DNA from: an uncultured Clostridia bacterium
Lineage (GTDB): Bacteria; Bacillota; Clostridia; Oscillospirales; Ruminococcaceae
DNA length: 42,111 nt
Reading direction: 5' to 3'
Assembly: GCA_947627875.1 (NCBI GenBank)
Contig: CANQXS010000023.1
Coordinates: 1 to 42,111, forward strand
Shown here: positions 3,207-29,393 of the stretch, one piece after another
Layout: each line of letters begins with the position of its first letter
Position numbering within the stretch: the first letter of the stretch is position 1
The notes under the pieces: model-generated
What the model was told of the DNA's origin: nothing
Databases searched by the model: none
What the model saw: only the letters and a program-made list of their open reading frames with translations
Translations under genes and position numbers: made by a program

Positions 3207-3590
3207 TTTTCGCCGTCTTTTATAAGATGCTTGAGCATCTCCTGCTCGTCGGCTTCGCACAGCTTCGACCAGTGCTGCAATCTCGAAAGAACATAGTTGT
3301 AAAGATTGTTGTAATTGATGTAATGTATGGAGCAACTCTCTTTGCCGTACTGCGAGTAAGTCGAGCAGTTGAAATATCTCCGAACGCCGTTTTTCTTTTT
3401 TACTAAAGAATATTTCAGTGAGAATCCGCAATCTGCGCATTTTATCAAGCCGGCAAACATTTGCTGCTCGCCACTTCCGGTAGTCTTTCGCCTTGATTTA
3501 ATCATCTCCTGCACCTTGTAAAAGTCCTCGCGGGAAATGATAGGCTCATGAGTATTCTCGACCTTTATCCACTCGAAAGCTTCTTTTCGC
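3197..3590 (-). pseudogene. Serine recombinase fragment (zinc ribbon region)
   Basis: The frame reads FEWIKVENTHEPIISREDF, then the recombinase zinc-ribbon with CADCGFSLKY and a FNCSTYSQYGKESCSIHYI second half, as in large serine recombinases of mobile elements. The N-terminal catalytic and DNA-binding domains are missing. The upstream side joins the truncated IS256 transposase at about 3590 and the downstream side joins an unrelated tail at about 3200. A 105-codon piece from the ATG at 3514 could be translated but would lack catalysis. Confidence 0.75.
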
Positions 3591-4951: not shown

Positions 4952-5611
4952 TCACATGATATTCCTAATGTTCAAACTTACCTTATCGGCAATATTCTCA
5001 GACTGTATCCAATCCATAATAGAAGGGGTGATATCCGTGAGTGTTGCCTTTCTATCTCGAACTTTTATAAGAAAGTCCCGTATTTCATCATCAAACTTCA
5101 TCTCTTTCAGAAGCGCGTCGGCTTTCTGCCTTGCTACATTATAAGAATCAATACTTTCCTGTGTCAAAGGTAATTTTTCACACTTGCTGAGAGCGCTGAT
5201 ACAACTTCTTATAGCATTAGGCGTCGGGTGTACAAGAACAATTATATTCAGTCCCCCGATAATCTCGTTGTTTCTTGATTTATAAAACGCTTCCCATTCT
5301 TTAGCGATAGAATCCGCAAAGGTTTCTGCTTTTTTACTAAAAGATGCAGGATTCACAGCCTTAGCGTTTTCAAAGGCGTTTTTTAAGTAATTCATAATAT
5401 CTTGCAAATCAGAAGCGGTGCTTGACTGTAAAGTAAATCCGAAATTTTTCTTTGCAAGAACATATGATTTGACAAAAGGTGTGAGGTTTTTAAAGCTTTC
5501 AAAGAAGGTGTTATTTCTCCTTGCAACGTCGGCATTATCATTTTCTTTTTGCCTGTTATCAATGACATCTTCAATCAAGTTGATAGCCGTCTGTATCCTT
5601 TTATGCAGCAT
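4952..5611 (-). CDS. Small helical protein, last gene of the island (DpdI position)
   Basis: 219 residues, predominantly helical by eye, with no membrane segment, cysteine cluster or nucleotide-binding motif. It starts four bases after the stop of the large ATPase gene and ends just before the operon terminator, so it is the last gene of the transcript. The position after the ATPase corresponds to dpdI in deazaguanine DNA-modification islands, but I cannot show homology. A segment around VLVHPTPNAIRSCISALSKC is the only distinctive patch. Probably a structural or specificity partner of the ATPase. Confidence 0.6.
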   Translation of the reverse strand: MLHKRIQTAINLIEDVIDNRQKENDNADVARRNNTFFESFKNLTPFVKSYVLAKKNFGFTLQSSTASDLQDIMNYLKNAFENAKAVNPASFSKKAETFADSIAKEWEAFYKSRNNEIIGGLNIIVLVHPTPNAIRSCISALSKCEKLPLTQESIDSYNVARQKADALLKEMKFDDEIRDFLIKVRDRKATLTDITPSIMDWIQSENIADKVSLNIRNIM

Positions 5612-5615
5612 ATAC

Positions 5616-8600
5616 TCACACCTCCTTCAATTCAGCAAAAAGCGCTTCAAACGATTCTTTCTGCTGCTCAAAACGCGGATCGATATTATCGTTCCAGCTG
5701 CCGCGGCGTGTCAAAATGTTTTTTTCGTTTTTCATCTGCTCTTCCGCGATAGCTATATCCTTATCTGTTCTTTTCAGCATATCAAGGAAAGGTAAAACTA
5801 CGCCTATAGGATTTTCCGAGAAAGCACAAAGTACAGAAATATCGTCCTCGCCGGAATAATCTTTTTGAAGTACTGACATAGCTTTTGCTATCTCTGAAGC
5901 TGAATTTTTAAGCTTTTTAAGTGATACATCATCTATTATATTGATATTAATCCCTGCAGAAAAGCATCTTTGATAAAAGATTTGAATATCATTAATCATG
6001 TCGCGAATATCGCTAGCATCGAGCTCGTCCTCTATATCGAAATCAAAATAATCAAGAATATCTTTTGCGCTTTTATGAGCAAGAGCTGTTTCTCCATCGA
6101 CAACTCTATGAACTTTAGATAGCACCCTCTGCGTAAACTCGAATATCTCGCGCTTGTCTTTGACGGCCTTCTCTGTGTCGTTGATATCGTTTTCATCAAG
6201 AACATATTCCGACTTGCGTATCTCTTTCAACGCTGACTGATAAAGCGGATAATTAAGCACATAGTTATCAGTATTAATGGTCATACCTTGAATTAGATTG
6301 AAATATCTGACGGAAGCAGTGTAGGAATCAACTGCTCTGGGGTCATTATATATGAACTGGTGCAAATCATACCATTCCTGTGAGTGACCCGACGAAAATT
6401 CAGCAGCCAAGTTTTTGGAAGTATCATTGCTGAGAAAAGTCTCATCTCCGAGGCGATTTAGTTTTGTATCGCCAATTTTGCCGTTGATAATAAGCTTGTA
6501 CACTTTTCCTATCATAGCAGCCTTGATATACGCAGGAACAGCAATACCATTATCAACATTCTTTACAGCATTTACAAACCTATCCTTATTTCTTTGCAGC
6601 CATAAAGTTGCAAAATAGATCGCCGATGCCGAATCGGGGAAATTCCATGATTTGTTACCAAGATACAACCATTTTCCGAAGCACAGAAGTAGTTGATAAA
6701 TTTCATCAGTATCATTAAATATTACAATACATTTGTCGAGAGCTTGGTCCTGTCTTTCAAAGCCGACAAGTCTACCCCCGATCGAATCTTTAAATTTGTT
6801 CCTAGAATCGAGTGGTACACCCTCCTGCTGCCAGTTTATAGTATCGTAAACAAAGTTACTGATCTGATCGCGTATAGGAATAAAGCGTATTAGTTTCTCT
6901 CCGTCCCGATGCCATGAAATAACGTTTTCTCTGAAAGAATCATAGTCTTTCTGATTTTTGGGATCTATCTTAGGTTGTTCTTTTACACACGAATTAGTGG
7001 GATAAGTTTGGGACTCAGACTCAACTATTTCTTCAACTGCCTCAGTATCTGCAGAAGACTTGCTTGTAACAGTTGCAGTACTTATAAGTTTGCTTGCAAA
7101 TTCGCCGAAGCCAAGATCAAAAAATAACTCCGTTTTAATTCCTGCTATGCGACCATTGCCAGCCACGTCAAGGGTTTTATTGGTCCAAAAGCCCATAAAC
7201 ACTACAAGTCGTTTTCTGTAATCAACTTTCAGTTCTGAAGCTATCGGCATAGACTGAACTATATTTCCAATCCTGTTTTCTACAGATTCCGGAAGAGAAG
7301 AATGCCAGCCTAAGCAGAATTTCGGAAATGACGAAATATCATGCAATACTTCGTTTACAGCAGGTTCTACAATATCTCTAAGGATATATCTCGGTGTTTT
7401 GTGATCCGACATAGCCCCATAAAGGTTTACGATTGCGTTCTGAGTAAACGGGAAAAGCGATATTTGTTTTCCTGAGGCCAGCTTGAATTTATCCCAGTGA
7501 TCGTGATCAAGGTCTTCATAAACGGGCATATCCTCGGAATATGCGCCGTTTTTTACCCATTTATCAAAAGCTTCGCTGTCAAGTGAGATGGCATTAAGAT
7601 ACTTGGCGACAAACTGAACAAGGTCGCTCTTGTTATCGCCGATAACACCATCGTGTATTGTTATCTGCTTGGTGATTCGATCACGGTAATTATCTCTGAA
7701 TTGATTGTAATACTGCGTTGTAGTGCCGACAACAGAAATAAGCTTACAAAGATTATCTACGGCATTTGAACCGGTATGACCTGTTACAAGAGCATTGAGA
7801 AGCGCCTGATTGACGCCGGTAAAAGATGTTATATCCTCAACGAGCAATATTAAGTTTTTGCCTTTTCTCTTTAATTCTTGACGTATCTCTTTAAATATCT
7901 GCTGAAAGTCTCCGGGTTCTATGCCAGCACTTGTCTGGATAACCGTTTCAACGAAAGTGTTAAGATAGTCTGTTATCTTCTGAATGAATTCATCATTGCC
8001 CTCAAGGAGATCGTCAGCAAAATCCTGAGCTTTTCTATCTGCGTCATCAAGCTGATAGATAAAATCGATATCAAGAGTAAGATCGGTCTTGCTGAATTGA
8101 GCTATAAGATCAAGGTCAACGCCGGACGATGAACTTGTTATCTTACTGTAGATACGATCTATCGGACCTCCTGCGCCCATAAGTCTTTCCTGAAACACAG
8201 AATTGTTAAGCAAGGCAATAAGTTTTTTTCTTTTGATGTTTCCCAGGGTTTCACTTGTATCGTTTTCTATTTCGACTATGAATTGATGATAGATCGTCGA
8301 TTTAAATTTGCTTTCGGTAATGGTTTGATTTGCCCTGACAAGTCGCTCATAGGCTTCTTTATTTGATATTTCTTTTACTTCTTTAATTTCAAGCAGCTGT
8401 CTGATAGTTCCTTTGAGGGTGTTATCGCTTCTGCGAATAAGAAGAACAACGTCCTCCTTTTCTTCTCTGGCAGAAAGTTTAGCATACAGCCAGCGGATAA
8501 AATGCGATTTGCCCGCGCCGCTTGAACCCTCGACAATTACAAACTGATGATCGTTTTTCGTGAGAGCGTTATTAAAGAGATCCCTGTATATATCTTCTTC

Positions 8601-8756
8601 CGATTTATAGGTCTCCTCAAATTGATCTCCCGATTTTGCTGCGACGGCTATTTTGCGAAAAGGGACATGAGTTGCGAGAAAATCACTGTCGGTGCTGTCG
8701 ATAGAATCTATTCTCAAAACCTGACTGATCCTCTTTTTTGCAATATCTGTATTCAT
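5616..8756 (-). CDS. Large P-loop ATPase, DpdH-like
   Basis: 1046 residues. A Walker A motif EGSSGAGKS lies at residues 76-84 and a Walker B-type LILLVEDI at 302-309, about 220 residues later. The protein is long and mostly helical after residue 500, with no helicase motifs III-VI, so it is an ATPase or molecular switch rather than a helicase. Its start overlaps the previous stop as TAATG. Order (after SNF2, RecQ-like and a small protein) and size match DpdH of the dpd islands as I remember them; DndF/DptF-type ATPases are an alternative. Likely uses ATP to control loading of nuclease or helicase partners on unmodified DNA. Confidence 0.65.
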   Translation of the reverse strand: MNTDIAKKRISQVLRIDSIDSTDSDFLATHVPFRKIAVAAKSGDQFEETYKSEEDIYRDLFNNALTKNDHQFVIVEGSSGAGKSHFIRWLYAKLSAREEKEDVVLLIRRSDNTLKGTIRQLLEIKEVKEISNKEAYERLVRANQTITESKFKSTIYHQFIVEIENDTSETLGNIKRKKLIALLNNSVFQERLMGAGGPIDRIYSKITSSSSGVDLDLIAQFSKTDLTLDIDFIYQLDDADRKAQDFADDLLEGNDEFIQKITDYLNTFVETVIQTSAGIEPGDFQQIFKEIRQELKRKGKNLILLVEDITSFTGVNQALLNALVTGHTGSNAVDNLCKLISVVGTTTQYYNQFRDNYRDRITKQITIHDGVIGDNKSDLVQFVAKYLNAISLDSEAFDKWVKNGAYSEDMPVYEDLDHDHWDKFKLASGKQISLFPFTQNAIVNLYGAMSDHKTPRYILRDIVEPAVNEVLHDISSFPKFCLGWHSSLPESVENRIGNIVQSMPIASELKVDYRKRLVVFMGFWTNKTLDVAGNGRIAGIKTELFFDLGFGEFASKLISTATVTSKSSADTEAVEEIVESESQTYPTNSCVKEQPKIDPKNQKDYDSFRENVISWHRDGEKLIRFIPIRDQISNFVYDTINWQQEGVPLDSRNKFKDSIGGRLVGFERQDQALDKCIVIFNDTDEIYQLLLCFGKWLYLGNKSWNFPDSASAIYFATLWLQRNKDRFVNAVKNVDNGIAVPAYIKAAMIGKVYKLIINGKIGDTKLNRLGDETFLSNDTSKNLAAEFSSGHSQEWYDLHQFIYNDPRAVDSYTASVRYFNLIQGMTINTDNYVLNYPLYQSALKEIRKSEYVLDENDINDTEKAVKDKREIFEFTQRVLSKVHRVVDGETALAHKSAKDILDYFDFDIEDELDASDIRDMINDIQIFYQRCFSAGININIIDDVSLKKLKNSASEIAKAMSVLQKDYSGEDDISVLCAFSENPIGVVLPFLDMLKRTDKDIAIAEEQMKNEKNILTRRGSWNDNIDPRFEQQKESFEALFAELKEV

Positions 8757-9574
8757 TATTTCACCGCCATTTTTATAATTATATGAGTAACATCGGATGT
8801 AAACTCGTGCTCTTCATTCGGAAACAGATGCCATATTTTCTCACTGTCAAGGTGCTTTTTCAGTTCGATTTCTTTATTATCATGCAAAAGTCTGAGGGCA
8901 TTTGACATAGCAAGATTCAAAGTCAATGAAGATCCAACATTTTTTAATGCAACACTAGAACCATCATGAAGACCGTCCAAAAATTCTTCAACAGAGTATT
9001 CTTTTCCTTTTTCTAAACTGCCGAGAATCATAAAATCCTTTAACGCTGTATACATATTCGGAAGAAAGAGCTTGGTCTGTTCTTGAAAGAAACCAAATCC
9101 GAGAAAGCTGATCCAGAATCTTACGCCAAGAATTACGTCCTTTTCAAGCTTATTGGAAGATATACCTGTTTCAGCATTTATTATTCTAATGACCTCGGCC
9201 GAGGTAGTAACAGACCCATAATTCAGCCATTCATTATTCGCCTCCAGAAAAAGAGAGATTATTTTATAAAAATCGGAAGAGCTATCTTTAAATACTACCG
9301 AATTGCAGAACAAGCGGAAAGCAGTTAACGATTTTATATCATCCTTTTTTCCGATGAAAACCACTTTTTTATCTTCGTTATATCCAATAAGCTCCAACTC
9401 CTTTGCTGTTTCAAATATCGGATTGAAGTAAGAAGTCTTGGCAGTGTTCAGTTCTGACGGTATAAGGATGCTTTCTAACTCTTTTTCATCTATCGGTCCC
9501 CTATCCGCAACAATCTGACTTATTGAAAGAACGCGTTCGGGAATAGGCTCCGTTTTTATTGAACTTATAAACAT
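8756..9574 (-). CDS. DpdG-like protein of unknown function
   Basis: 272 residues with no catalytic motif that I recognise. It starts inside the stop of the RecQ-like gene (TAATG) and ends in the start of the ATPase gene (TAATG), so all three are translationally coupled and probably made in fixed ratio. N-terminal residues 10-70 (VLSISQIVADRGPIDEKELE) look like a winged-helix fold, and the C-terminal third contains the pattern LNLAMSNALRLLHDNKEIEL, also wHTH-like. Position between RecQ-like and ATPase genes is that of dpdG. A DNA-binding adaptor is my inference. Confidence 0.6.
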   Translation of the reverse strand: MFISSIKTEPIPERVLSISQIVADRGPIDEKELESILIPSELNTAKTSYFNPIFETAKELELIGYNEDKKVVFIGKKDDIKSLTAFRLFCNSVVFKDSSSDFYKIISLFLEANNEWLNYGSVTTSAEVIRIINAETGISSNKLEKDVILGVRFWISFLGFGFFQEQTKLFLPNMYTALKDFMILGSLEKGKEYSVEEFLDGLHDGSSVALKNVGSSLTLNLAMSNALRLLHDNKEIELKKHLDSEKIWHLFPNEEHEFTSDVTHIIIKMAVK

Positions 9575-12030
9575 TATATCAACTCCTTTTTTATGATATA
9601 GTCATATTTACAGGCACCGTTTACCAACTCTGATATGCGCTTATTTCTGCCGGAGATGTAAAGGTCAGAGCTTACTATATACACACGGTTGTACTCTTTA
9701 CCAGAGGCCGTACACAGAACTTTTTCAGCAAGCGAAGAGTCGTTATCTATGCAAAAAACAATAGTTCCCGAAAGATAGTAATGAATGTTCATGCGGCTGA
9801 GTTCAAAAAACTCGCCATATCCCATGCAAAACTGAGAGGGGCTGCTATTATCGGTATTGAGAAGCATTGAGGCTTCGTTCGATTCATCAGGCATTACTAT
9901 AACATCGGCTCCGGCAGAGAAAAGGTCACACATCAATGCATTAGAGCCTCTTTCACTGATAATAAGCATTTCCTTAGAGCCTGTCATAATATCAAAGAGC
10001 TTTCCCGCAGGAGATGAAACTGGGTAATATACAGGCTTTTTTAGCGGGAAGCTTTTTCTTTTATCAGCCCGTATGTTATTGTGATTGTTGCAGCCTGCGC
10101 AATATTCATCAGTAAGAAGGTAAATGTCGTTGAACATTGATGACCAACAGCTTTTTCCGACGTTGCGAAGTTTTGATACCAGGTCGTTTATGTCAGAATA
10201 AATGCTTTTACATTCATCTTCGCGGACTTTATTGAAAACGGCTGCGGTTCGATCGGTATTAAATCTGATTTGTTTATCAATAAGCTCTATGCTGAAAATG
10301 TATCTGTCATTATCATATTTGACGTCCTTAATCTGTATCAGCCCGGCTCTTCTGAGCAGGAGAATGACGTAGACGTTCCATGCAATATCTGCATTGTTGA
10401 CATCAACGTAGAAATTGTCGGTATCATTGTAATTGGGCTTAACAGATGTGTCTATCACTATTGAGTCAAGCTGTATATTTGCTTTACGGCTGTTAAGCAT
10501 ACTGAACCAACGTCCGCTCAGCTTTTCTACGGTGAGGACCTTCTGCGTCATAGACATCGCCACAGATATATCATCGTCGGTATAGAGCATAACGCTGAGA
10601 CATGGAAAACCGTCGCGCCCGCCTCGTCCGCATTCTTGATAATACTGATCAGAACCGGAGGGGACATAAGTATGAATGACTGTTCTTACGTCTTTCTTGT
10701 CTACGCCGACGCCAAAGGCGCAAGTAGCTATCATAAGATCAAATTTATCGTTTACCCATTCGTGTATGATGCGTTCGCGGTCTGAAGATCCGGTTCTTCC
10801 TGTAAAAACTCTTGTGTTGCTAAATCCACTTTCAGCTAATTCACAGTGTAGGGTTTCAGCATCGTCCGGCGAGTTGACATATATTATCATAGGTCGCGGG
10901 AGCTTGCCGGCAAGCTCTTTTATCCTGTCATGCTTTTCGGTATAGGACCGACACTTTATAACGTCGAATCTCGGTTCTTTTCTAAGCGTATCCAATCGAA
11001 TTTCTATCCAGCGGTCATTATCGGAATAGAACATTTTCAGGTTATCGACTGTTTTCTTGCTGAATGTAGCAGAAAGAAGAAAAGTTCTTAGCATAGAATT
11101 ATTACTTACAAGAAACCTTCTGAAAGAATCAAGGCACTGAAAGTCCACGCGGAAAGAAGCTCCCCATTCAATAATTATATGCGCTTCGTCTATTACAAGG
11201 TTTCTTAAATACCCTTGTGAATTGACTTTGAAAATGCTGTTTTGTATCTTTGAATTCTTGATAATCGCTTCAGGCGAAATAAACAGCATTCTGACCTGGT
11301 TTTTATCAATAGCGGAAACGAGTTCGTCGACGTTGCAGCCACTGTAATAATACATTATTTCTTTTTTATTGGCAGGATTAATTATTTTCATAGCGTTTCT
11401 TCGCTGATCAAACATGAGCGAAATAGTAGGAACGATGATAAGAGTTAAGGATTTATTAAATTGATACGAAACGGATTGAGTTACAAGGCTCTTTCCTCCT
11501 CCGGTTGACATCGCAACCATCGCAGTATAGCCGGCAGGAACCCTGAGAGCCCCCATAACAGCTAGCTGCTGCTCAATGGATTTAAATGTGCGAAATTGTC
11601 CATTGGTAAGCTTATATATGTACGGATTCACTTCTTTTATTTCATTATCATCGGCAACAGTCTGCACAGACTGATTGTCAAATACAGCTCTTACAAAGGA
11701 GTCATTAACATACTTAGGAAGGTCAAGATTAGCATATATGTGACCGTTGGCGCGGTTTATTATCAGCCCAAAACGGTTCGGCACTTTTAAATCATATTCT
11801 TTAATTGCTATGTCCGTTTTAAGAAACAATAAATAATTTCTCAGTGAACACTCAAATTCAGTCCCGTTTTCTTCGGTCTGTTGTAACCTAAAACGGTGAT
11901 AAGCGTTTATCATTCGTATAGCCACGGCAGAGTTGGGATTACTATCATTTATAAAATTTGCTATGTCTATTGCAAGATCAGGCATATCCATAAACTTCTG
12001 AACATTACAGATTATATCCTGATTTGTCAT
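9574..12030 (-). CDS. RecQ-like superfamily 2 helicase, DpdF-like
   Basis: 818 residues from the ATG at 12030, whose ATGA overlaps the stop of the SNF2 gene; an in-frame ATG at 12054 would add eight residues. Walker A is MSTGGGKS (residues 174-181), motif II DEAH (281-284), then LLSATF, and motif VI YYQECGRGGRDG of RecQ type. The 170 residues before the helicase core and the roughly 300 after it match no RecQ accessory domain that I can see (no RQC or HRDC pattern; a lone CAGC pair near residue 690). This layout and its place after a SNF2 gene match DpdF. Probably unwinds or tracks along target DNA in the restriction step. Confidence 0.8.
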   Translation of the reverse strand: MTNQDIICNVQKFMDMPDLAIDIANFINDSNPNSAVAIRMINAYHRFRLQQTEENGTEFECSLRNYLLFLKTDIAIKEYDLKVPNRFGLIINRANGHIYANLDLPKYVNDSFVRAVFDNQSVQTVADDNEIKEVNPYIYKLTNGQFRTFKSIEQQLAVMGALRVPAGYTAMVAMSTGGGKSLVTQSVSYQFNKSLTLIIVPTISLMFDQRRNAMKIINPANKKEIMYYYSGCNVDELVSAIDKNQVRMLFISPEAIIKNSKIQNSIFKVNSQGYLRNLVIDEAHIIIEWGASFRVDFQCLDSFRRFLVSNNSMLRTFLLSATFSKKTVDNLKMFYSDNDRWIEIRLDTLRKEPRFDVIKCRSYTEKHDRIKELAGKLPRPMIIYVNSPDDAETLHCELAESGFSNTRVFTGRTGSSDRERIIHEWVNDKFDLMIATCAFGVGVDKKDVRTVIHTYVPSGSDQYYQECGRGGRDGFPCLSVMLYTDDDISVAMSMTQKVLTVEKLSGRWFSMLNSRKANIQLDSIVIDTSVKPNYNDTDNFYVDVNNADIAWNVYVILLLRRAGLIQIKDVKYDNDRYIFSIELIDKQIRFNTDRTAAVFNKVREDECKSIYSDINDLVSKLRNVGKSCWSSMFNDIYLLTDEYCAGCNNHNNIRADKRKSFPLKKPVYYPVSSPAGKLFDIMTGSKEMLIISERGSNALMCDLFSAGADVIVMPDESNEASMLLNTDNSSPSQFCMGYGEFFELSRMNIHYYLSGTIVFCIDNDSSLAEKVLCTASGKEYNRVYIVSSDLYISGRNKRISELVNGACKYDYIIKKELI

Positions 12031-15317: not shown

Positions 15318-15335
15318 AACATCGCCGCCATAATT

Positions 15336-17927: not shown

Positions 17928-17932
17928 GTCGA

Positions 17933-20900
17933 CTACATCTCCTCATGCATTTCTATAAGCATTTTACCCCAGTTGTTGCCCTTGGAGTCAAGGTTTAAAA
18001 ACCAGATGAAATTATCTATTGCCCTTGTCATCGCAACATAGAGAATCCTCGATTCTTCCATCATCATTTCTTGTATTTCCGTCTTGGATTCATAAAAGTT
18101 ATTGCAATATTGATTTCCGTTTGCCGAAAGACAATACCCAATCTTTCCGTCAACATAGGAAACTTCTATTCCGTTCCTGTGAGGTCTATCTATTTCGTCT
18201 TCGGTATCGGGCATTATCACCGTGCCATATTCGAGACCTTTTGATTTATGGACTGTAAGCCCAACAACTCTTATATCGCCTGTATCAATGTCGATCTCTC
18301 TTGATTTTGCTTCTGTACCTGTCATTATATTGATGTAAAGCGACTTGTTAATAGACTCAAGAGTAAGATAGCTTTTCTTGTTCATTCTGGATAATTCTTC
18401 AAACACAAGTTCATAGTTTGCACGGTAGTATTCCTGCTGATATTCATCGGACGGCGAATATGCTTTCCACGGTTTTGTAGCTTCATATATCAGCCTGAGC
18501 GTTTTCAGAACCGGCTCGTTCTGGATATCACGGATAAGTTCTTTCCATGTTTTCCCTATAGTGGAACTAAAGAATTTGTCGAGGCAGTCAATGAATACTT
18601 CCGTCTTTTCCTCAGCGGTTTTACCGAGTATAGATCGAATATCAAAGGCAATGTTTACATTTCTTGAGTGGATAAGATTATACAAATAGGTTGGATTATA
18701 AGGATTACAAAGCGCTGATGTCAAGCGGCACAAATCAGTACTAGGTGCAAGCCTGTAAAGATCGCTGTTGTTATCGCTTTCTATTATAACATCTCTCTTC
18801 TTTGCTTCTTTAAGTATATCGTTTACCTGATAGTTGTTTCTGGTAAGAATTGCTATGGTGCGCTCGCTCTTTGAAAGTTCCTTCGTTTTCATCTCGGTCT
18901 TGATGCGCTGTCTCTGCTCTTCGATGGTTTTGAAAAGCATGTCATAGTATAACGTTGAATTCTTCTTGTCAGAATTATGATACGGAATTACAGCAACAAC
19001 ACGATCTTCACAGATATCATTTTCTTTTATTCCTCTGAGCGTATCGACAGCTTTCTCATATTTCAATAAATTTATGCTGTTCATATATGAGAAGGTTCTG
19101 TCAAATCTGAGCAACAATCTCTTATCGCTACGGTAGTTGATGTTCAGAGTAAACGAAAGCCATTTTTCATTGTTGCAGCCCATTTTCTCAAAAGCTGTCA
19201 TAGTTGCTCCTCGGAATCGGTAAATACTCTGTTTAAGGTCGCCAACAATGAAAAAATTAAATCCGAGTTTATTCTGCATATTTATAAAAGACGCTATCTG
19301 TGCATCGTCTGTGTCTTGGAATTCATCGATAAATACATATTTAAACTCATATAGATTTGTGTTGAACGCTTCGCTATCTATGCACTTACTGAGATGGAGC
19401 ATATACTCAGAAAGGGAAACAGCGTTATTATCTATCAGCAATTTTGAGTATTCCTTTTCGGTTGCTATGACAACCTGTTCAATTATCTTATTGAGAAAAG
19501 GCATCTCCGTAGGCGCATCTCCCCATGAACCGATATCAAGAGTTTTAATGTCACAACCTTTTTCGTATAGTTTATTGGCAATATCAAGCATCAGTTTGCG
19601 GAACTTGTCTATACTCATCGACAAACCGTTAAAAAATATAGGATCGAGTTTGTTTTCTTCCTCAAGATATGCGGTAAAAAGACGGTCCAATATCTTTTGC
19701 TTGTCATATTTTCCCACAACAGTTGTAAAGTCCGTTCCGATGCCGAGAGTTATTGCCGTATTGGAAATAATATCTTTGGCAAAGCTATGGATAGTGGAGA
19801 TACGCATTTTCTCAATGCTTGTAACCATTTCAAGGTACTGTGTATTATTGGTGAGTATGAAATAGTTCACAAAAAGCTGCTTCAGCCTTGATTTCATGTT
19901 TAGAGCCGCGTCGTCGGTAAAAGTTAGCATCGCTATCTCGGCAGCAGGGTTAAAAACGCCGGAATTTGAAGCGTAGCTGCAAAGGTACGCTATTCTTGAC
20001 ACCATGGAATATGTTTTTCCTGTTCCGGCACCGGCTTTGACCTGAATGTCACGCCCGATCTCAGCATGTTCTATATGAAATTGATCAATATTAAAATCCG
20101 TTGCTTTTGCTATATTTGAGAGGACAGCTTCCTGTTCATTTGTGAGCTTCCCATTATATGCCTTGAAAGAACTTACAGTTAAGTCTTTTATATAAACTGC
20201 TTCAAAATTGAAAACAGATATTTTGCCGTTTTTGACAGCAATAACGGTTTCATTGTTGTCGGACGAGTTTATTGCAAGATTGACGCCTTTTATAATTATG
20301 TGATTTCTTGTAAAGGATTCTGACAACTGCTTTGCTATGACTTCAAGAGCAGACGCGTCTTTGGTAAATATTATTTGTTTTGTCCCTTTAAAATAGGAGG
20401 ATATAATATCATTTATATTGGCGACGGTTATTCCCTCGGAAAAAACGGATAGGCAGGAGTAAGGGATAACATTTTGAGCCGGCGGGGTCACAATATATGC
20501 AGGCTCAAAGTGATGCCTTGCGATATCATATTTATCGCCGACCATTTTGTCAAAGCTGATCTGCCGAGAATCCCGATATATTTCTGCTATCTTGCGCGAA
20601 AACCTATTGATAGACTCAATATCTTCACTGAAAAGAGTGTATTCCGGTTCTGAAACTATGCTCAAACCAAGTTTATTATATTCGGTTTCTGAAATGAAAG
20701 GGTAGCATACCATATTCATGACAAGAGGATTGATGCCGTATTTTTCGTTCAAGATGTTCCTGAGTTTGAAAGAGTATGATCTGGCTTGCTTTTTCGGAGA
20801 AGCTTCAGTGCTTCCGTCAGTCATAATTATCTCGTCAGGGGAAACTACCTCGCTGATATGGCTTCTGTGCCATCCCTTGACTTCAATTATAACAAACCCC

Positions 20901-21055
20901 ACGTCTTTTATAAAAAGGCAAAAGTCAAATTCTCTGCCTTTTACCTCTCTGTTATAGTAACACACAATATCTTCCGGCAAATTATCCTTTATACACTGCC
21001 AAACTTTTTTCTCTCCCTCATAATTGTCAGGCTGTTTATCCTTCATTAAAGCCAT
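17933..21055 (-). CDS. NERD-domain UvrD/AddA-like superfamily 1 helicase
   Basis: 1040 residues. Residues 10-130 form a NERD nuclease-related domain (GEKKV, then REFDF at 41-45 and IIEVKGW with E58/K60). The SF1A core follows: Walker A AGAGTGKT (341-348), TIHSFAK, motif II DEFQDTDD (577-584), GDLKQSIYRFRG, NYRSDKR, TVHKSKGLEYG and motif VI LYVAMTRA. The C-terminal PD-(D/E)xK nuclease of AddA is absent, and the NERD domain may replace it. The next gene encodes an AddB-like protein, so the pair probably forms an AddAB-like resection or restriction machine. ATG is preceded by GAGGGAG. Confidence 0.85.
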   Translation of the reverse strand: MALMKDKQPDNYEGEKKVWQCIKDNLPEDIVCYYNREVKGREFDFCLFIKDVGFVIIEVKGWHRSHISEVVSPDEIIMTDGSTEASPKKQARSYSFKLRNILNEKYGINPLVMNMVCYPFISETEYNKLGLSIVSEPEYTLFSEDIESINRFSRKIAEIYRDSRQISFDKMVGDKYDIARHHFEPAYIVTPPAQNVIPYSCLSVFSEGITVANINDIISSYFKGTKQIIFTKDASALEVIAKQLSESFTRNHIIIKGVNLAINSSDNNETVIAVKNGKISVFNFEAVYIKDLTVSSFKAYNGKLTNEQEAVLSNIAKATDFNIDQFHIEHAEIGRDIQVKAGAGTGKTYSMVSRIAYLCSYASNSGVFNPAAEIAMLTFTDDAALNMKSRLKQLFVNYFILTNNTQYLEMVTSIEKMRISTIHSFAKDIISNTAITLGIGTDFTTVVGKYDKQKILDRLFTAYLEEENKLDPIFFNGLSMSIDKFRKLMLDIANKLYEKGCDIKTLDIGSWGDAPTEMPFLNKIIEQVVIATEKEYSKLLIDNNAVSLSEYMLHLSKCIDSEAFNTNLYEFKYVFIDEFQDTDDAQIASFINMQNKLGFNFFIVGDLKQSIYRFRGATMTAFEKMGCNNEKWLSFTLNINYRSDKRLLLRFDRTFSYMNSINLLKYEKAVDTLRGIKENDICEDRVVAVIPYHNSDKKNSTLYYDMLFKTIEEQRQRIKTEMKTKELSKSERTIAILTRNNYQVNDILKEAKKRDVIIESDNNSDLYRLAPSTDLCRLTSALCNPYNPTYLYNLIHSRNVNIAFDIRSILGKTAEEKTEVFIDCLDKFFSSTIGKTWKELIRDIQNEPVLKTLRLIYEATKPWKAYSPSDEYQQEYYRANYELVFEELSRMNKKSYLTLESINKSLYINIMTGTEAKSREIDIDTGDIRVVGLTVHKSKGLEYGTVIMPDTEDEIDRPHRNGIEVSYVDGKIGYCLSANGNQYCNNFYESKTEIQEMMMEESRILYVAMTRAIDNFIWFLNLDSKGNNWGKMLIEMHEEM

Positions 21056-21103
21056 AGCTACTCCCTCTGATATACTGATAAAAAATAAGATGAATGTTAT
21101 GAA

Positions 21104-21691
21104 TTATTCAAAATAATCTTCATTCAGTTTGTATAAAGCATACGTTTTTACCTTCTCTAAACCGATCCCATGTTTGATCATAAGATCGACCAAGTGTTCT
21201 CCGTCAATCAATATGATATTTTTATCTTTTTGATCATTTACAAAGTCGTTTGCGGTTTTTATGAACGAAGAAGTAGTGATAAAAACTCCTTTGTTAACGC
21301 CTTGCATCGATGCGTAGAAATTTTTAATCTGTTCTATTCCGACCTTATTTTTTGTTCCATATCTTTTAGCCTGAATATATATTTTGCTTAATCCTAGGCT
21401 ATCCTCATAGATAATTCCGTCGATACCTCCGTCATGAGATTTACTTGTGACTGTTCCCGATTGGTCATCAAAACCATAGCCCATTTTTAGCAAAAGATCG
21501 AGCACTAACTGTTCAAAGAAGCTCGGATGACAACTTAAAATTCGATTAAGCAGTTGAGCTTTAAGACTGTTTCTGTAAAGCTGATATGTTTTTTCTATCT
21601 TCTCTTCCGGAAGCAGATCTTCCTCTGTTCGCTCCGATTTGTTGGTGTTATTGGGGGCGTTTTTTATATTGGTTTCCACTAAAGCATACAA
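21104..21691 (-). CDS. Mrr-type restriction endonuclease, catalytic part
   Basis: 195 residues. Residues 55-170 are a typical Mrr_cat domain: FEQLVLDLLLKMGYGF, DGGIDGIIYED (catalytic Asp) and IYIQAKRYG (Q-x-K), then GVFITTSSF. Mrr proteins are type IV nucleases that cut modified DNA, or in Dnd contexts may respond to phosphorothioate. The frame overlaps the preceding 80-aa N-terminal domain by 13 bases. A -1 shift at 21700-21706 would join them as KIVGQKGLKELYALVET, which reads as one natural protein. Either a frameshift mutation or programmed frameshifting; alone this part lacks its DNA-reading domain. Confidence 0.75.
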   Translation of the reverse strand: MYALVETNIKNAPNNTNKSERTEEDLLPEEKIEKTYQLYRNSLKAQLLNRILSCHPSFFEQLVLDLLLKMGYGFDDQSGTVTSKSHDGGIDGIIYEDSLGLSKIYIQAKRYGTKNKVGIEQIKNFYASMQGVNKGVFITTSSFIKTANDFVNDQKDKNIILIDGEHLVDLMIKHGIGLEKVKTYALYKLNEDYFE

Positions 21692-21921
21692 TTCTTTGAG
21701 CCCTTTTGACCAACGATCTTAAAATATTTGACCGGCGACGCTCTGGGAAAATCCAAGCCTTCGCAGTGGCAACGGAGTGTGGAGTTGACCACAGATTCTG
21801 GCTGCTTTGCACCAAACTCATATAAATTCCTTTTTACTATCTCTTTGTACGCTTCTTTATGAGTAAGGCTGACATTATCTTTAAGCACTTCTCTCAGCGC
21901 ATCAACAATTCTGATCCTCAA
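21679..21921 (-). CDS. Mrr N-terminal winged-helix domain, frame-separated
   Basis: 80 residues with the Mrr_N pattern: RIVDALREVLKDN, SLTHKEAYKEIVKRNLYEFG, then ESVVNSTLRCHC and YFKIVGQKG. This domain binds DNA in Mrr proteins. The frame ends shortly after GQKG at TAG, while the catalytic domain continues in the -1 frame. It lies 16 bases after the dndA stop, so it is part of the same transcript. Whether a stand-alone 80-aa product matters is unknown. Confidence 0.65.
   Translation of the reverse strand: MRIRIVDALREVLKDNVSLTHKEAYKEIVKRNLYEFGAKQPESVVNSTLRCHCEGLDFPRASPVKYFKIVGQKGSKNCML
21700..21706 (-). other. Candidate -1 slippery heptamer A_AAG_GGC in mrr
   Basis: In the zero frame of the N-terminal part the - strand reads caA AAG GGC, which fits the X_XXY_YYZ rule. 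A -1 slip gives GGG and continues LKELYALVET into the catalytic domain. No strong downstream stem was obvious by eye. Confidence 0.4.
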
Positions 21922-21937
21922 TCTTATCTCCCCTTTC

Positions 21938-23131
21938 TCATATGCTTCTTTTCAAAACGGTAATAAATTCATCTATATCCTCTCTGTTTGAGTTCTTGCT
22001 TAAAGAGACTCTTATTATTTTACCAGTCATATCCTGAAGCCCTATTGCTTTTATTACATGCGAGGGTTCGCCAAGACTGCAAGCAGAGCCTGTGGATACC
22101 GCAACTTCATTACTTATGCGTTTGATGAATCTTTCATTATTGAAATCTGTTCTGTCAACTAAAATGCTTATGATCCCTTTTACTCTAAATTTCTCAGGAA
22201 TAACGATTTTGATATTATCAAAGTCACTTATCTTTTCAACAAGATAATCGTCCAACTCGCTTATATGCTCACGGTTGATTTCCATATCGCGCAAAGCTAT
22301 CTCTGCAGCTTTTCCGAAGCCGACTATATTATGCACTGCAAGTGTGCCGGCACGGATACCGCATTCCTGCTCACCTCCGTGGAGCAGAGCTGTTATTGGC
22401 GGTAATCCGTACTTATCGGCTTTGATATAAGCGCAGCCAATTCCTTTAGGACCGTACAGTTTATGTCCCGATGCTGAAAGAAAATCAACATCAAGTTCAC
22501 GAACGTTTATAGGGAATTTTCCCGCTGCCTGCGTTGCATCAACGTGGAGCAATACGTTATGGCGGTGAGCCGTTTTGACTAAAGCGGTTATATCGTTTAT
22601 TGTGCCGGTCTCATTATTTACATAGATAAACGAGGCAAGAGCTGCTGCTTCGTCAATGGCTCTCTCAAACTTATCTGCGGCGACATGCCCGTATTTATCA
22701 ACTTCAATAAACGTAGCGCTGTATCCTCTGTCAACTCTGTCGTTGGCTGAAAAGAGCGACATTGTAGCATCGTTGTTTGAATATATCTCGCCATTAAGGT
22801 ACTTGCAGACGTTTAAAGTGGCTTTGTGCTCAGCATTAGAAGTAATAACGCGGTTTTTTCCTCCGCAATAAAACTTAGAATAATCAAGCACTCCCTTGAT
22901 TATCATATTTGTGCTTTCGGTGGCACCGGAGGTAAATATTATTTCTTCGCTCGATGCACCAAACAGTGAGGCAACTTTTGCCCTTGCCTCTTCAACAGCC
23001 TGTTTAGCTTTATCGGCTTTACAGTAATACTTACTTGACGGATTGCCGTATTCCTCTCGTAGATACGGAATCATCGCCTCAAGCACTTCTTCATCGACCG
23101 GAGAAGTGGCTGCGTTATCAAGATATATCAT
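21938..23131 (-). CDS. dndA: Cysteine desulfurase DndA
   Basis: 397 residues, class V PLP-dependent cysteine desulfurase (NifS/IscS type): YLDNAATSPVDEEVL, TSGATESTN, HVDATQAAGK, the PLP-binding lysine in SGHKLYGPKG (K224) and the persulfide cysteine in STGSACSLGEPSH (C351). In Dnd systems it supplies sulfur to DndC. Its ATG overlaps the dndE stop (ATGA). Order C-D-E-A in one operon is unusual for bacteria, where dndA is commonly divergent or absent, and resembles the haloarchaeal dndCDEA arrangement. As a desulfurase the call is certain; as DndA it rests on context. Confidence 0.9.
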   Translation of the reverse strand: MIYLDNAATSPVDEEVLEAMIPYLREEYGNPSSKYYCKADKAKQAVEEARAKVASLFGASSEEIIFTSGATESTNMIIKGVLDYSKFYCGGKNRVITSNAEHKATLNVCKYLNGEIYSNNDATMSLFSANDRVDRGYSATFIEVDKYGHVAADKFERAIDEAAALASFIYVNNETGTINDITALVKTAHRHNVLLHVDATQAAGKFPINVRELDVDFLSASGHKLYGPKGIGCAYIKADKYGLPPITALLHGGEQECGIRAGTLAVHNIVGFGKAAEIALRDMEINREHISELDDYLVEKISDFDNIKIVIPEKFRVKGIISILVDRTDFNNERFIKRISNEVAVSTGSACSLGEPSHVIKAIGLQDMTGKIIRVSLSKNSNREDIDEFITVLKRSI

Positions 23132-23508
23132 ACTGTATCACCTACTCCGAACACCTGGAGAATATACTTGTCAACGCTCCCGGCATGATTGTACATATCC
23201 AGAAGAAGTTTGCTGCCCCGATCGATATGGGCCTTAACGTACTTGGGAAAGAACTCATCTTCTTCGAGAAAACGTCCTTCGATGAGCTCAAACATTGTTT
23301 TGAAGTACTCTTCGTTGTCGCCGGTGATGGTCTGCCTGTTGAGGTCGAGTCCATTTGAATCGGATATAAAATCCTTAACAGACGTCTTCTCAACAACGGA
23401 CCATGCAATAGCGTGTTTTACCAAAGTATATGGTTTGTAATTAGTGCGTCTTTCAAGCTCCTCAAATATATCCTGAGTTTGCTTTGACGTTTTCAGCCTG
23501 AATATCAT
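23128..23508 (-). CDS. dndE: DNA sulfur modification protein DndE
   Basis: 126 residues, the usual DndE size. An RLKTSKQTQDIFEELERRTN start, a YTLVKHAIAWSVVEK helix and the GLDLNRQTITGDNEEYFKTM block correspond to the DndE family pattern (G-E/D-L-N-R, L-x-G-D). DndE binds nicked DNA and is required for phosphorothioate modification together with DndC and DndD. It starts 11 bases after dndD and is coupled to dndA by an ATGA overlap. Confidence 0.85.
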   Translation of the reverse strand: MIFRLKTSKQTQDIFEELERRTNYKPYTLVKHAIAWSVVEKTSVKDFISDSNGLDLNRQTITGDNEEYFKTMFELIEGRFLEEDEFFPKYVKAHIDRGSKLLLDMYNHAGSVDKYILQVFGVGDTV

Positions 23509-23519
23509 AGTTTTTCACC

Positions 23520-25655
23520 CTAAAAGAAATAGCCGTTTGTTACCGTAGTTCTGTTTTCACTCTGATCGTTTCTGAGCAGATATTCCTTGGATATAAAAGG
23601 TTTAATGATCTCATGATAATCCTTTGTGACTTCTTCGTCTGTTGAAAGGATAATGACCTGACTGCTGATGTTCGGGAAGAACTTAGACGAGATCTCCTCG
23701 CGATGATTGGCGTCGATGCGTGCATAAGGAGTATCTATAACAAACGGTATCTGCTTTCCCGATATCTGAATGATTGCCCAGTACAGAGCGAGTATGAAAA
23801 TCTGTCTTTCGCCTTTGGACAACGTGTTCAGATCAATTCTCTTATAAAGCTCTATTTCCTCAAAATTATTATCGCATGAAATAACAGCGTTCTCAATGTC
23901 GTCCGCTTCGTCAAGAGAGAAATAACTGCATAGTCGCTTGATGCTTTTGTCTCCCATAACCTTTAAGAATTCTTTTATGCCGATGTTTGCGATAAGCGAC
24001 TTAAGCTCGCCCATCGTAAACTTCTGTGTCTGAAACAGGTCAAACTTAAAGTTATCCGCAATCTCGATAATTGAAATAAGGTTATCTTTGCGATATATCT
24101 TCTGCAGATTCTCTATTATTTTTTGAGAGAGCTGTTTGCGGATACTGATCATACTACGGTCAATAAGTCTTTCCATCATCAGTGAAATGCTTGTACTCAG
24201 ATCCAAAACGTGTTTGTCCTGCGTGCTGGCGCGTATCTTTTCTTTTACCGTGCTAAGCTCAGAATTAAGAGTTTGCAGCTTTGCACCAAGCTCTTTCAAT
24301 TCATTTTGCTTTTGTGAAGATTCCAGTTCCAGCAGCTCGATTCTGTGTTTCGCGGTTATGATTTCATCTGTATATTTTTTAGCGTCTTCTTCAGATAACG
24401 CATTTTTCAACCGCTGTCTGATAGATGTAATTCTCTTGACTAATTTATCTTTTTCCACAATCTTTTTAGCAAGCTTCTCAGAATCAAACGAAGCGACCGT
24501 ATCGGCAAGATGCAGTATCTGCCCCATTTCAGCTTTAGAAAGGTCAAATATCATCTCATCATATGTACCGTTAGCTACTGCTAATTTTTTTACTATAGCC
24601 ACATAAAGTACCTCTGAGAAACCGTCGTCTTTTTTCATTTTATCGGAAACTATGCTGCTGATAAACTCTTTGGAGATCATATTGGAAACATACTCTTGAA
24701 TAGAAGCCTTTTCCTCATATTTAATCTGTTGACTAAGCTGCGGTATTAAATCTTTCATTATGAAGAACGGCATAAGTTCTTCAAAAAACTCCTTTATCTC
24801 ACGAGCGATAAGTTCACGTTTTTTCTCATATTTGTTTACCTCTTCTTCAAGCAACTTAGCTTCTTCCGACGGCAATCCTCCTGACCTTAAAAATTCAGCA
24901 TTGCGCTGTTCAATGAGAGTGTGAAGCAAAGCAATCTCTTGTTCATTATCAGCAAGTGCAGTTTCGCAAGATTTTATTGATTCCTCAGCTTCGGCTATTT
25001 TGTTAAGCAAATCCTGATATTTTGAGTTGAGTTCGATTTCTTCTTCGCTTTCAATCTTGCCATTGTAGTTCTTGCAGAAATGTTGAAGAATTTGCAGATC
25101 GTCAATACCGCACATCGTAAGCAAAACGTTCTTCACATACTTGTTATATCCGTCTGAAGAAAATATTGTACCGACTTCTTCACCGTCAAACAGGAAAAAT
25201 TCAAAGAGTTCTATCGGTATTATATTGAGAATGTAGCTTTCAAACAATGCCTTTTCGGATTCATCAAGAAGTTTGCCGCCCTCATAGACATCGTATTCTT
25301 CTTCTATTTTTGAATCTATGATACTCCAGCTGCGGTTGATAGTATAATATTTGATCTCACGTTCCTGCTTTAATTTTATTTCGATGGATATACCTGAGGC
25401 GAACGGCTGCAACTGGAATGCCTTATCGTTTATAAGTCCCCTGATCTTTTTGCTGTAAAAAGTATTATTTCCGGTATATCCAAAAGCTAAAGGTCCGTAA
25501 AGAGCAATTTTTATAGCTGTGAAGATAGATGTTTTTCCAGCGCCGTTGAGCCCTCCTATCAGTATGATAGGTTTTTTTTCATCGACATTGAAATCAAACA
25601 CGGTTTTCCCTTCATATGAACTGAAATTGTCAAGCACCAGTTTCGTTATCTGCAT
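23520..25655 (-). CDS. dndD: DNA sulfur modification ATPase DndD
   Basis: 711 residues, SMC/Rad50-like. Walker A GLNGAGKT lies at residues 35-42. A long coiled-coil-rich middle (about 190-480) follows, then the ABC signature LSKGERQ and Walker B FVIDTPYARID with a STDEE H-loop-like end. DndD ATPase activity accompanies sulfur insertion, probably by handling DNA structure or nicking. It overlaps dndC by 26 bases in another frame. Confidence 0.92.
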   Translation of the reverse strand: MQITKLVLDNFSSYEGKTVFDFNVDEKKPIILIGGLNGAGKTSIFTAIKIALYGPLAFGYTGNNTFYSKKIRGLINDKAFQLQPFASGISIEIKLKQEREIKYYTINRSWSIIDSKIEEEYDVYEGGKLLDESEKALFESYILNIIPIELFEFFLFDGEEVGTIFSSDGYNKYVKNVLLTMCGIDDLQILQHFCKNYNGKIESEEEIELNSKYQDLLNKIAEAEESIKSCETALADNEQEIALLHTLIEQRNAEFLRSGGLPSEEAKLLEEEVNKYEKKRELIAREIKEFFEELMPFFIMKDLIPQLSQQIKYEEKASIQEYVSNMISKEFISSIVSDKMKKDDGFSEVLYVAIVKKLAVANGTYDEMIFDLSKAEMGQILHLADTVASFDSEKLAKKIVEKDKLVKRITSIRQRLKNALSEEDAKKYTDEIITAKHRIELLELESSQKQNELKELGAKLQTLNSELSTVKEKIRASTQDKHVLDLSTSISLMMERLIDRSMISIRKQLSQKIIENLQKIYRKDNLISIIEIADNFKFDLFQTQKFTMGELKSLIANIGIKEFLKVMGDKSIKRLCSYFSLDEADDIENAVISCDNNFEEIELYKRIDLNTLSKGERQIFILALYWAIIQISGKQIPFVIDTPYARIDANHREEISSKFFPNISSQVIILSTDEEVTKDYHEIIKPFISKEYLLRNDQSENRTTVTNGYFF

Positions 25656-27030
25656 TGTCTATCTCCTTCAGTAGATCAAAATGAAGCCACTGCTGATTCA
25701 AAAGCCTTTCGAGGTCCTTGCGCATAATCTTCGGATTTGAATAATTTTTGTTTTGGTGAACCGATAAAATAAGATTTCTTACAAGTTCGCTCGGAACGTC
25801 AAATTCTTCGCACATATCTTCTATACTGCTTACCGTGTCTGCTTTAATAAGGGGCTCTTTGTAGCTGTCCCATGGAAGTCTTTCGCCTGTGAGATCAAAA
25901 TAAAGATCGACAAGCACTCTGCGCGAAAGGTCAAGTTCCCGATCCCATATTTCATCAATGGCTCTGAGTTCATCAATAGTTATGAGCTCATAATTGATAG
26001 CCTTCTGAGTTTCGATGAGCTTGGTGAGTATCATTTTTCTTGCTTCCCAAGTGAACGGACCGTATCCTTTGTTGCCGTGTTTGTCGGCATATACTGTCCC
26101 ATCTCTGTGTTTCTTTTCACGGTATTCGTTAACGTCTCTAATACTCATGATCCATGATCTAAACTCTGCCAAAGGAATAAGTTCACGATGGCCGGCTTTG
26201 ATAAATCCGTTAAGGGATTTATCGTCCCTGACGACCGTACAACACCAACACCCAAATCGCGATTGACCGCAGCTCTGTGTTTGTCCGGAGTTTGTCATTC
26301 CGGCAAAAGGGCATTCGCCGCTGTCAGCGTCGGAGTACAAGGCTACAAGCTCACCGTTATCAGAGCCCCACGGCGTTTTGCCGTTGTTATGTTCAAGAAG
26401 GACTTTCCAAACATCGTCGGTAGTAAGCTCTACTATAGGATTGTAAACATATGCGTCCTGTATAGTCTCATGTCTGTTTAGCATCCGTGTAGCAAGCTCT
26501 CGACCTTCGATACGCCGTTTTCTTGCGATACTTTCTGCTTTGCGCACACCGAGTAGAACGATAACTTCTTTCTTCTCCTCAGCCATTATCGCTTTTATTT
26601 TATCTGCACTTGGTCTGATCTTAAGCCTATCTGTGCACCACCTGAATGTGCCATTCATTCTCGGTGTGGGAAGCCCTTTGCCGATGATGTTAGTCCAGTA
26701 TGTATTGTTAAATTCCGGAGTCACCATACAGGACTTTATAGGAAGCCCTTCTTTTGCGGCGGCACTGCCGAGCAGTTTGTTCATTTTGCTAAGATATACC
26801 TTAATCAAAGGGTTCTCAATTAAGGTGTCGGAGGAAATAATATAAACATTTTTATGTCTTTTATTTGGCGCGAGAGACTGTAGCATCTCATATACCAACT
26901 CTACTACAGTGGTCGAGTCCTTTCCACCGCTATATCCGATTATCCACGGGCGATCGTCGGACAGATATACATATCTTATTTCACCAAGTAATTCTTCATA
27001 AGAATACTCATCAAAGTAGTTATTCATCAT
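25630..27030 (-). CDS. dndC: DNA sulfurtransferase DndC (PAPS-reductase-like)
   Basis: 466 residues from the ATG at 27030; ATG at 27027 and an upstream TTG at 27048 are alternatives. The PP-loop SGGKDST is at residues 34-40. A cysteine set (FRWCTDRLKIRP, then GECPF, SCGQSRFGCWCC) fits the 4Fe-4S cluster of DndC. It adenylates the DNA backbone and transfers sulfur from DndA. It is the first gene of the operon, about 33 bases after the predicted transcription start. No dndB repressor gene precedes it. Confidence 0.95.
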   Translation of the reverse strand: MMNNYFDEYSYEELLGEIRYVYLSDDRPWIIGYSGGKDSTTVVELVYEMLQSLAPNKRHKNVYIISSDTLIENPLIKVYLSKMNKLLGSAAAKEGLPIKSCMVTPEFNNTYWTNIIGKGLPTPRMNGTFRWCTDRLKIRPSADKIKAIMAEEKKEVIVLLGVRKAESIARKRRIEGRELATRMLNRHETIQDAYVYNPIVELTTDDVWKVLLEHNNGKTPWGSDNGELVALYSDADSGECPFAGMTNSGQTQSCGQSRFGCWCCTVVRDDKSLNGFIKAGHRELIPLAEFRSWIMSIRDVNEYREKKHRDGTVYADKHGNKGYGPFTWEARKMILTKLIETQKAINYELITIDELRAIDEIWDRELDLSRRVLVDLYFDLTGERLPWDSYKEPLIKADTVSSIEDMCEEFDVPSELVRNLILSVHQNKNYSNPKIMRKDLERLLNQQWLHFDLLKEIDNADNETGA

Positions 27031-27069
27031 TATCAGCCATCTTTTCAAAATTGTATGTATATATAATTT

Positions 27070-27098
27070 ATTATATCACTTCTCTTTAAGCCTGTCAA
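27070..27098 (-). promoter_or_regulatory. Extended -10 promoter of the dnd operon
   Basis: On the - strand TTGACA (27098-27093), 17 bases, TATAAT (27075-27070), with TGA directly upstream of the -10 (extended -10). Fully consensus, so expression is probably strong and constitutive unless repressed. The IS481 flank lies six bases upstream. Confidence 0.8.
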
Positions 27099-28194: not shown

Positions 28195-28213
28195 TTTTGG
28201 GAGTGTCCATTTC
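28188..28213 (+). repeat. 26-base direct repeat, right flank of IS481
   Basis: Identical to 27104-27129. It overlaps the right IS end and the start of the first MITE-like unit. Confidence 0.7.
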
Positions 28214-28309
28214 CACCACATTATAAAATTTTTTGCCGGAAAATTCGCCGTTACTAATCACTTTCCACTTCCCACATTTCAATTAAATGTGGTCGTTTCG
28301 GACACTCCC
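28199..28309. repeat. MITE-like unit 1
   Basis: Begins GGGAGTGTCC and ends GGACACTCCC. The inverted ends extend inwards as ACCACATT / AATGTGGT with a 6-base mismatch. No coding potential. It is repeated almost exactly 120 bases downstream. Confidence 0.75.
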
Positions 28310-29297: not shown

Positions 29298-29393
29298 TTT
29301 GTGAAAATATGTGCAGCCTTGCTCTATTAGTCCGGACTTCTGGACAGCTTATGTGCTAAAATGGTAGTATCTTAGATGCAGGAAGGTGACAAT

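Follow-up and report, generated by a model that had tools for sequence, protein, structure and literature searches.

A candidate phosphorothioate-based restriction-modification system in which Dnd genes are joined to homologues of DpdEFGHI

Introduction

Can a restriction module known from one kind of DNA modification serve another? The question is raised by an operon in an uncultured Clostridia bacterium of the Ruminococcaceae, in which dnd genes for phosphorothioate modification of DNA stand in front of homologues of DpdEFGHI, known from 7-deazaguanine (Dpd) islands. The stretch that we analyzed, called the window below, is the entire 42,111-base contig CANQXS010000023.1 (assembly GCA_947627875.1), from a genome of 2.57 Mb. 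The original prediction, made from the letters of the window, described it as a hybrid defence island. Passages of a 2025 review state that the restriction activity associated with Dpd was not further explored (PMC12707154). Among the papers listed by our full-text searches we recognized no report of Dnd paired with Dpd restriction genes, the supplements, which may list the arrangement, being outside the scope of these searches; a term search of the main text of PMC10853773 did not find 'Dpd'.

Gene content of the operon

The operon is on the minus strand, co-directional from 27048 to 4952 (about 22 kb), and the gaps between its open reading frames (ORFs) are -28 to +48 bp, confirming the claim of overlapping or nearly touching genes. 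In the order of transcription it consists of dndC-dndD-dndE-dndA, a HARE-HTH ORF, an Mrr ORF, a NERD-UvrD gene, the gene of an 863-amino-acid (aa) AddB-like protein and homologues of dpdE-F-G-H-I. The genes listed originally were right, but the list was incomplete: it skipped the roughly 6.6 kb that separate dndA from dpdE, with the HARE-Mrr ORFs, the 1040-aa NERD-UvrD protein and the 863-aa AddB-like protein. Because the gene order recurs in other assemblies, the operon is not an assembly artefact.

Membership in the Dnd family is clearest for DndC and DndD, both of which exceed the curated NCBI cut-offs, whereas DndE exceeds only that of Pfam. The catalytic motifs are in place. DndC (25630..27048, minus strand) is a PP-loop sulfurtransferase with SGGKDS and a cysteine cluster, and scores 397 bits on TIGR03183 (cut-off 290); an ATG at 27030 or 27027 is more likely as its start than the TTG at 27048. 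DndD (23520..25655, minus strand), a coiled-coil ABC ATPase with GLNGAGKT, LSKGE and FVIDT, scores 385 bits on TIGR03185 (cut-off 246). DndE (23128..23508, minus strand) matches PF08870 with E 4e-22 (79 bits against a cut-off of 25) and reaches 35 bits on TIGR03184, under its cut-off of 72. DndA (21938..23131, minus strand) is a cysteine desulfurase with TGSAC, HVDATQ and SGHK and scores 394 and 393 bits on the SspA and DndA models of PADLOC; since its 340 bits on TIGR03235 fall below the cut-off of 480, it is not separable from IscS/NifS by score.

The tail of the operon is of the Dpd type, as had been suggested from the order of its SNF2, RecQ-like, 272-aa, ATPase and 219-aa genes. Profiles identify the first four as homologues of DpdE to DpdH, weakly so for DpdG, and blastp together with profile-profile comparison identifies the fifth. 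The DpdE homologue (12027..15317, minus strand) is an SNF2-family ATPase with DEVGLGKT, DEVH and QRIGRLDR (NF041062, E 1e-101, 341 bits against a cut-off of 500), and the DpdF homologue (9574..12054, minus strand) is a RecQ-like helicase with TGGGKS, DEAH and QECGRGGRD (NF041063, E 5e-137, 459 bits, cut-off 550). The 272-aa DpdG homologue (8756..9574, minus strand) matches NF041064 weakly (E 7e-8, 32 bits, cut-off 80), and has a BLAST E of 1e-20 to the protein at the same position in the Dpd island of a Paenibacillus. Its predicted model has a mean predicted local distance difference test score (pLDDT) of 64 and a winged-helix-like N-terminus, a hint only that it may be a winged-helix protein; the best Foldseek match has an E of 0.21, with none at 0.001 or better. 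The DpdH homologue (5616..8756, minus strand) is a P-loop ATPase with GSSGAGKS (NF041065, E 4e-83, 280 bits, cut-off 450). The 219-aa DpdI homologue (4952..5611, minus strand) matches the same-position protein of the Paenibacillus island by blastp (E 1e-11), and a DpdI profile of the hybrid loci matches a profile of five other loci, with which it shares no rows, at 95.7% and E 9e-9.

The operon was also said to lack dpdA, and we agree: no TGT-family match was found on the window contig, and the one PF01702 (TGT) match in the genome, although no DpdA-specific model was run genome-wide, is on contig C9 (512 bits) and is taken as the housekeeping TGT. Of nine of the ten hybrid genomes introduced below (G1143 was left out), eight have a single PF01702 match, and G101 has two partial ones, each where a contig ends. 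DpdK was not among the matches listed for the operon proteins (PADLOC, NCBIfam), DpdJ appeared only as a 15-bit partial match on the DpdF protein, and neither DpdD nor queC/D/E was named in scans of the operon proteins.

The profile comparison proposed earlier, of the tail against DpdE-I, PbeA-D and DndF-H, thus found homology to Dpd and not to the other two. DndFGH was ruled out as the identity of the tail, with no DndF/G/H (DptF/G/H) among the matches listed (PADLOC, best 25 for four proteins; NCBIfam, all matches of the tail proteins). PbeABCD was ruled out on profiles: the model of PbeA (HKD + SF2) scores just 31 bits and TIGR04095 16 bits, in each case against DpdF. The sole window match of a PbeC query is DndD, which is its homologue, and a PbeA query match inside the AddB-like gene of locus L010 (22% identity, E 1e-4) was taken as chance.

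The operon therefore resembles several known systems in part. Like the 7-deazaguanine system (dpdA-K), it has DpdE-F-G-H-I in the same order, and the nearest of six Dpd loci compared, that of Paenibacillus sp. 37 pART37, likewise has an AddB-like/UvrD pair; it differs in having dnd genes in place of dpdA, NERD-UvrD instead of DpdJ/DpdK, and equivalog scores below the cut-offs. With the Dnd-PbeABCD systems (CxC ABC ATPase systems) it shares the order DndC-D-E-A, but it has neither a PbeA, apart from the 31-bit match on DpdF, nor a second ABC ATPase. As in Dnd-DndFGH (DptFGH), genes for phosphorothioate are combined with a restriction module of several genes, although the restriction genes differ. 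The parts that we saw of the descriptions of BRC and BRIGADE (PMC12839542, PMC12458937) present hybrids that also borrow Dpd parts; in these, BREX parts or YprA helicases accompany genes for TGT or 7-deazaguanine, and Dnd is not used. As a separate observation, a run of DpdF-G-H-I-like genes is found on the Skermanella plasmid pSR-1 (L100, 13914-21370); the stretch examined contains no match to DpdE.

Distribution of the hybrid loci

We found the hybrid loci by searching with the 863-aa AddB-like protein, not with dnd genes. A scan of genome contigs with this protein gave eight loci and a search of the family gave one more, G1143, so that the survey for the same junction in other genomes yields, with the window, ten loci in three layouts. 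NERD-UvrD and AddB-like genes were seen in all ten (in pieces in L013), and eight of them share their contig with dndC (the window, L007, L008, L009, L010, L011, L012 and G1143). The other two have dndA on the same contig: the L006 contig begins 705 bases ahead of dndA, its dndC-E being on another contig, and L013, which has internal gaps, contains dndA and the end of dndE, no DndC match being found in its assembly. The dpd genes of L010 are unseen because this contig ends inside the 863-aa gene, and dpdF is frameshifted in L009.

In layout A (the window, L006-L010 and L013), the tail is preceded by dndCDEA, to the extent that the contigs show. In layout B, represented by L011 (Candidatus Ruminococcus intestinipullorum) and L012 (Sellimonas caecigallum), the tail comes first and is followed on the same strand by dndB-C-D-E-A and the gene of an HNH-domain protein; the dnd models were run on the L011 copy, and L012 was judged by ORFs of matching lengths. 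In layout C (G1143) the tail is convergent with dndC, dndD, an ORF that is DndE-like by eye, and dndA. From NERD-UvrD through DpdH, the layout B and C proteins are 28-39% identical to those of the window, while DpdI is 23-24% identical in layout B and has only a 44-residue match in layout C. Most of the hosts are filed under Ruminococcus or other Clostridia.

Could the arrangement be a chance neighbourhood or a chimeric assembly? The majority of the named loci are metagenome-assembled genomes, and transposases flank the window operon. However, the arrangement recurs over ten loci and three layouts, including L012, whose record title names a strain (Sellimonas caecigallum SW451) and whose tail is 29-39% identical to that of the window from NERD-UvrD through DpdH. 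We consider chance or chimerism extremely improbable.

Outside these loci the components are uncommon. At E up to 0.001, DpdH was detected in 1/99 relatives, 6/391 genomes of the class and 3/398 of the phylum, and the only strong match was the window's own. The AddB-like protein occurs in 2/396 family genomes, and DndC scores over its cut-off in 4/391 class genomes.

Phylogeny of the two halves

One Dpd-type module is joined to different Dnd lineages, judging from the trees. The four class genomes with DndC are the window's, G325, G248 and G171; in the last three, PbeA homologues lie in the neighbourhood (for G248 as no more than a 380-aa frame), accompanied in G325 and G171 by a PbeC homologue. 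In the DndC tree (22 rows), layout A groups with G171 (support 89/85) and G248 (100/98), layout B with G325 (100/100), and layout C joins the layout B group (91/86). Forcing the hybrids into one clade is rejected for DndC, with a log-likelihood 252 lower (approximately unbiased test, p 4e-42), and for DndD (21 rows; 147 lower, p 1e-65). In the concatenated DpdE-F-H tree (14 rows), by contrast, the hybrids form one clade (100/99) with the Paenibacillus Dpd island next to it; the order within the clade is (A,B),C, and a grouping of B with C is rejected (p 3e-13). Given the single clade of hybrid tails and the split DndC and DndD, the Dnd half was swapped while the tail kept its single origin.

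The rows of these trees were chosen by us, and the labels of their companion genes rest on the stretches and annotation that we saw. Unlabelled rows, among them Chlorohelix and Priestia, contain genes for DEAD helicases and AAA proteins, possibly of the Pbe type. The kinship with PbeABCD that had been raised for the window is not supported for the tail, but in layouts A and B the nearest relatives of the Dnd half are Pbe-linked Dnd genes. That the junction is both conserved and formed with different Dnd lineages fits the suggestion that a Dpd-type restriction module has been recruited to phosphorothioate DNA.

Helicase and nuclease genes

Between dndA and dpdE the first constant element is a 1040-aa protein (17933..21055, minus strand) in which an N-terminal NERD nuclease domain (PF08378, E 8e-8), with D...ExK, is fused to a UvrD helicase (PF00580, E 4e-39) with its helicase motifs. 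All three layouts, and likewise the human-gut scaffold L014, have the NERD domain on their UvrD protein, whereas it was not found on the UvrD relatives of the Paenibacillus, Geobacillus and Exiguobacterium pairs. For this reason it is the best candidate for the putative nuclease of the system.

The NERD-UvrD gene is followed by that of the 863-aa AddB-like protein (15336..17927, minus strand), which has an iron-sulfur-type cysteine pattern, CPYRF...CxxCx5C; three of these cysteines are invariant in eight homologues (alignment A5). The pattern is one known from AddB. A UvrD helicase adjoining such a partner is reminiscent of AddAB/RecB-type enzymes, from which the window pair differs in that the nuclease is an N-terminal NERD domain and the partner has no nuclease motif visible by eye. 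Against 491 sequences, the best match of the AddB-like hidden Markov model outside its own members was a housekeeping AddB (E 0.012). The AlphaFold2 model (mean pLDDT 44) was too poor and was not used, and a sequence search of the PDB gave seven matches and nothing convincing, the best being to a designed coil (E 0.008). Scans of viral contigs with the AddB-like and DpdH profiles found no relative.

HARE-Mrr is the less constant element of this region. In the window it is broken into a HARE-HTH ORF for the N-terminal part (21679..21921, minus strand; PF05066, E 0.002, 18.9 bits, below the cut-off of 25.9) and an Mrr-type endonuclease ORF for the C-terminal part in a different frame (21104..21691, minus strand; PF04471, E 3e-31). 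It is also broken in L007, is intact as a single 271-aa gene in L008, and had no match in L006, L009, L010 and L013, where dndA abuts NERD-UvrD. Because the NERD-UvrD and AddB-like genes stay open where HARE-Mrr is broken (the window and L007) or absent (L009), HARE-Mrr is unlikely to be the essential nuclease. A relative adjoins the dnd and Pbe genes in G171.

UvrD/AddB-like pairs also occur in other settings. A complete Dpd island on the Paenibacillus plasmid pART37 (L101, 5936-48350), with dpdA, queC/E, two dpdJ and dpdK, ends in such a pair, and others are on plasmids of Geobacillus (L015, 11927-17238) and Exiguobacterium (L102, 9095-14822). The human-faecal scaffold L014 (607-8363), filed as phage (MT836883) although it may be bacterial, has NERD-UvrD, the AddB-like gene and a 326-aa protein that is WYL-type by eye.

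The main rival to joint action is that two separate defences share one operon, with Dnd serving its own purpose and NERD-UvrD, the AddB-like protein and DpdEFGHI forming a free-standing anti-phage machine that ignores phosphorothioate and senses, for example, odd DNA ends or structures. The Geobacillus and Exiguobacterium pairs have no annotated dnd or dpd genes nearby, which favors it, as does the Paenibacillus pair beside a complete Dpd island; L014 is too short a fragment to judge. However, all ten of the NERD-type loci have dnd genes, at least dndA, on the same contig, even though Dnd is rare in the class, and this linkage was formed with different Dnd lineages. We therefore regard a free-standing machine as rather unlikely.

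Promoter and flanking genes

A match to a sigma-70 promoter, TTGACA-17-TATAAT with TG preceding the -10 box (12/12), is directly upstream of dndC (27070..27098, minus strand). A similar pattern is matched at the same place in four of the five related loci inspected (L008, L009, L010 and L040), and the fifth, L007, has only a poorer one as judged by eye.

Transposases of two different families, IS256 and IS481-like, abut the operon (3565-4641 and 27139-28221). By blastn, the flanks of the window did not match any of seven related loci, the majority of which include only short flanks. Genes for a ComEC-like protein of the metallo-beta-lactamase fold (PADLOC LmuA 82 bits, RTasMBL 68 bits), a 271-aa protein and an ADP-ribosylglycohydrolase (29376-32605) are perhaps another defence gene group, and a P4-type primase-like protein (33830-35482) is a sign of a mobile element.

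Proposed function and significance

We favor the explanation that the operon is a phosphorothioate-based restriction-modification system of new composition, which we think is probably correct. Its basis is the gene content, the intact motifs, the phylogeny, the promoter match kept in related loci and the repeated linkage of one DpdEFGHI-type module with distinct Dnd lineages, from which the roles of the proteins are inferred. DndA and DndC would make the sulfur available and DndD-DndE would insert it into host DNA, which would thereby be labelled as self. DpdE (the SNF2 motor), DpdF (RecQ-like), DpdG, DpdH (the ATPase) and DpdI would form a surveillance complex that engages DNA with unmarked target sites. 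The NERD-UvrD/AddB-like pair would then act as an AddAB-like helicase-nuclease, unwinding and degrading the captured DNA and standing in for the helicase and PLD nuclease (DpdJ/DpdK) found in 7-deazaguanine islands, with HARE-Mrr as an optional additional nuclease.

Several results weigh against this explanation. Because defence genes cluster anyway, linkage is not proof of joint action, and the rarity of the hybrid is a weak point. DpdE-H are homologous but all score under the NCBI equivalog cut-offs. The assignment of the 863-aa protein as an AddB homologue is suggestive only, its hhalign value of 56% comparing with 38% for an unrelated control. In the layout C locus the top PADLOC model for DndD is PbeC (741 bits), with 491 for the best DndD model; this protein has no CxC motif by eye, and its gene is between dndC and dndA. 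Several tree rows were flagged by the tool as long-branched or of odd composition. Finally, the Pfam scans named no sulfur-binding domain for any tail protein, although it was not checked that Pfam includes a model of one.

This last result bears also on another rival, in which the tail is an effector switched on or guided by host phosphorothioate, as reported for the SspE and DndI systems, and not by its absence. Phosphorothioate-sensing partners are known from the parts seen of two papers (PMC9646914, PMC11662687). However, the Pfam scans of the tail named no such domain, and in DpdA islands the mark is thought, according to the portion seen of PMC11888242, to separate self from non-self. 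We consider an activated effector improbable.

DpdEFGHI may even be a modification-agnostic surveillance machine, a possibility that we rate as somewhat less likely than not, with the mark enforced being 7-deazaguanine in DpdA islands but phosphorothioate in the hybrid loci. In this form of the proposal, the module would sense the absence of any blocking mark, or take orders from the cognate modification complex, with no regard to a particular chemistry; DpdEFGHI would then be pluggable onto new marks and new nucleases. One restriction module under a change to the base in one case and to the backbone in the other is a natural swap of marks, which opens the discrimination between marked and unmarked DNA to direct tests. 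The module may be indifferent to the chemistry of the mark; otherwise, specificity sits in the parts that are exchanged (NERD-UvrD and the AddB-like protein) or poorly conserved (DpdG and DpdI). If our explanation is true, a new restriction partner joins the list for Dnd (DndFGH, PbeABCD and DndI), and the recurrence of the pairing in related bacteria points to a novel means by which invading DNA that lacks the mark may be policed.

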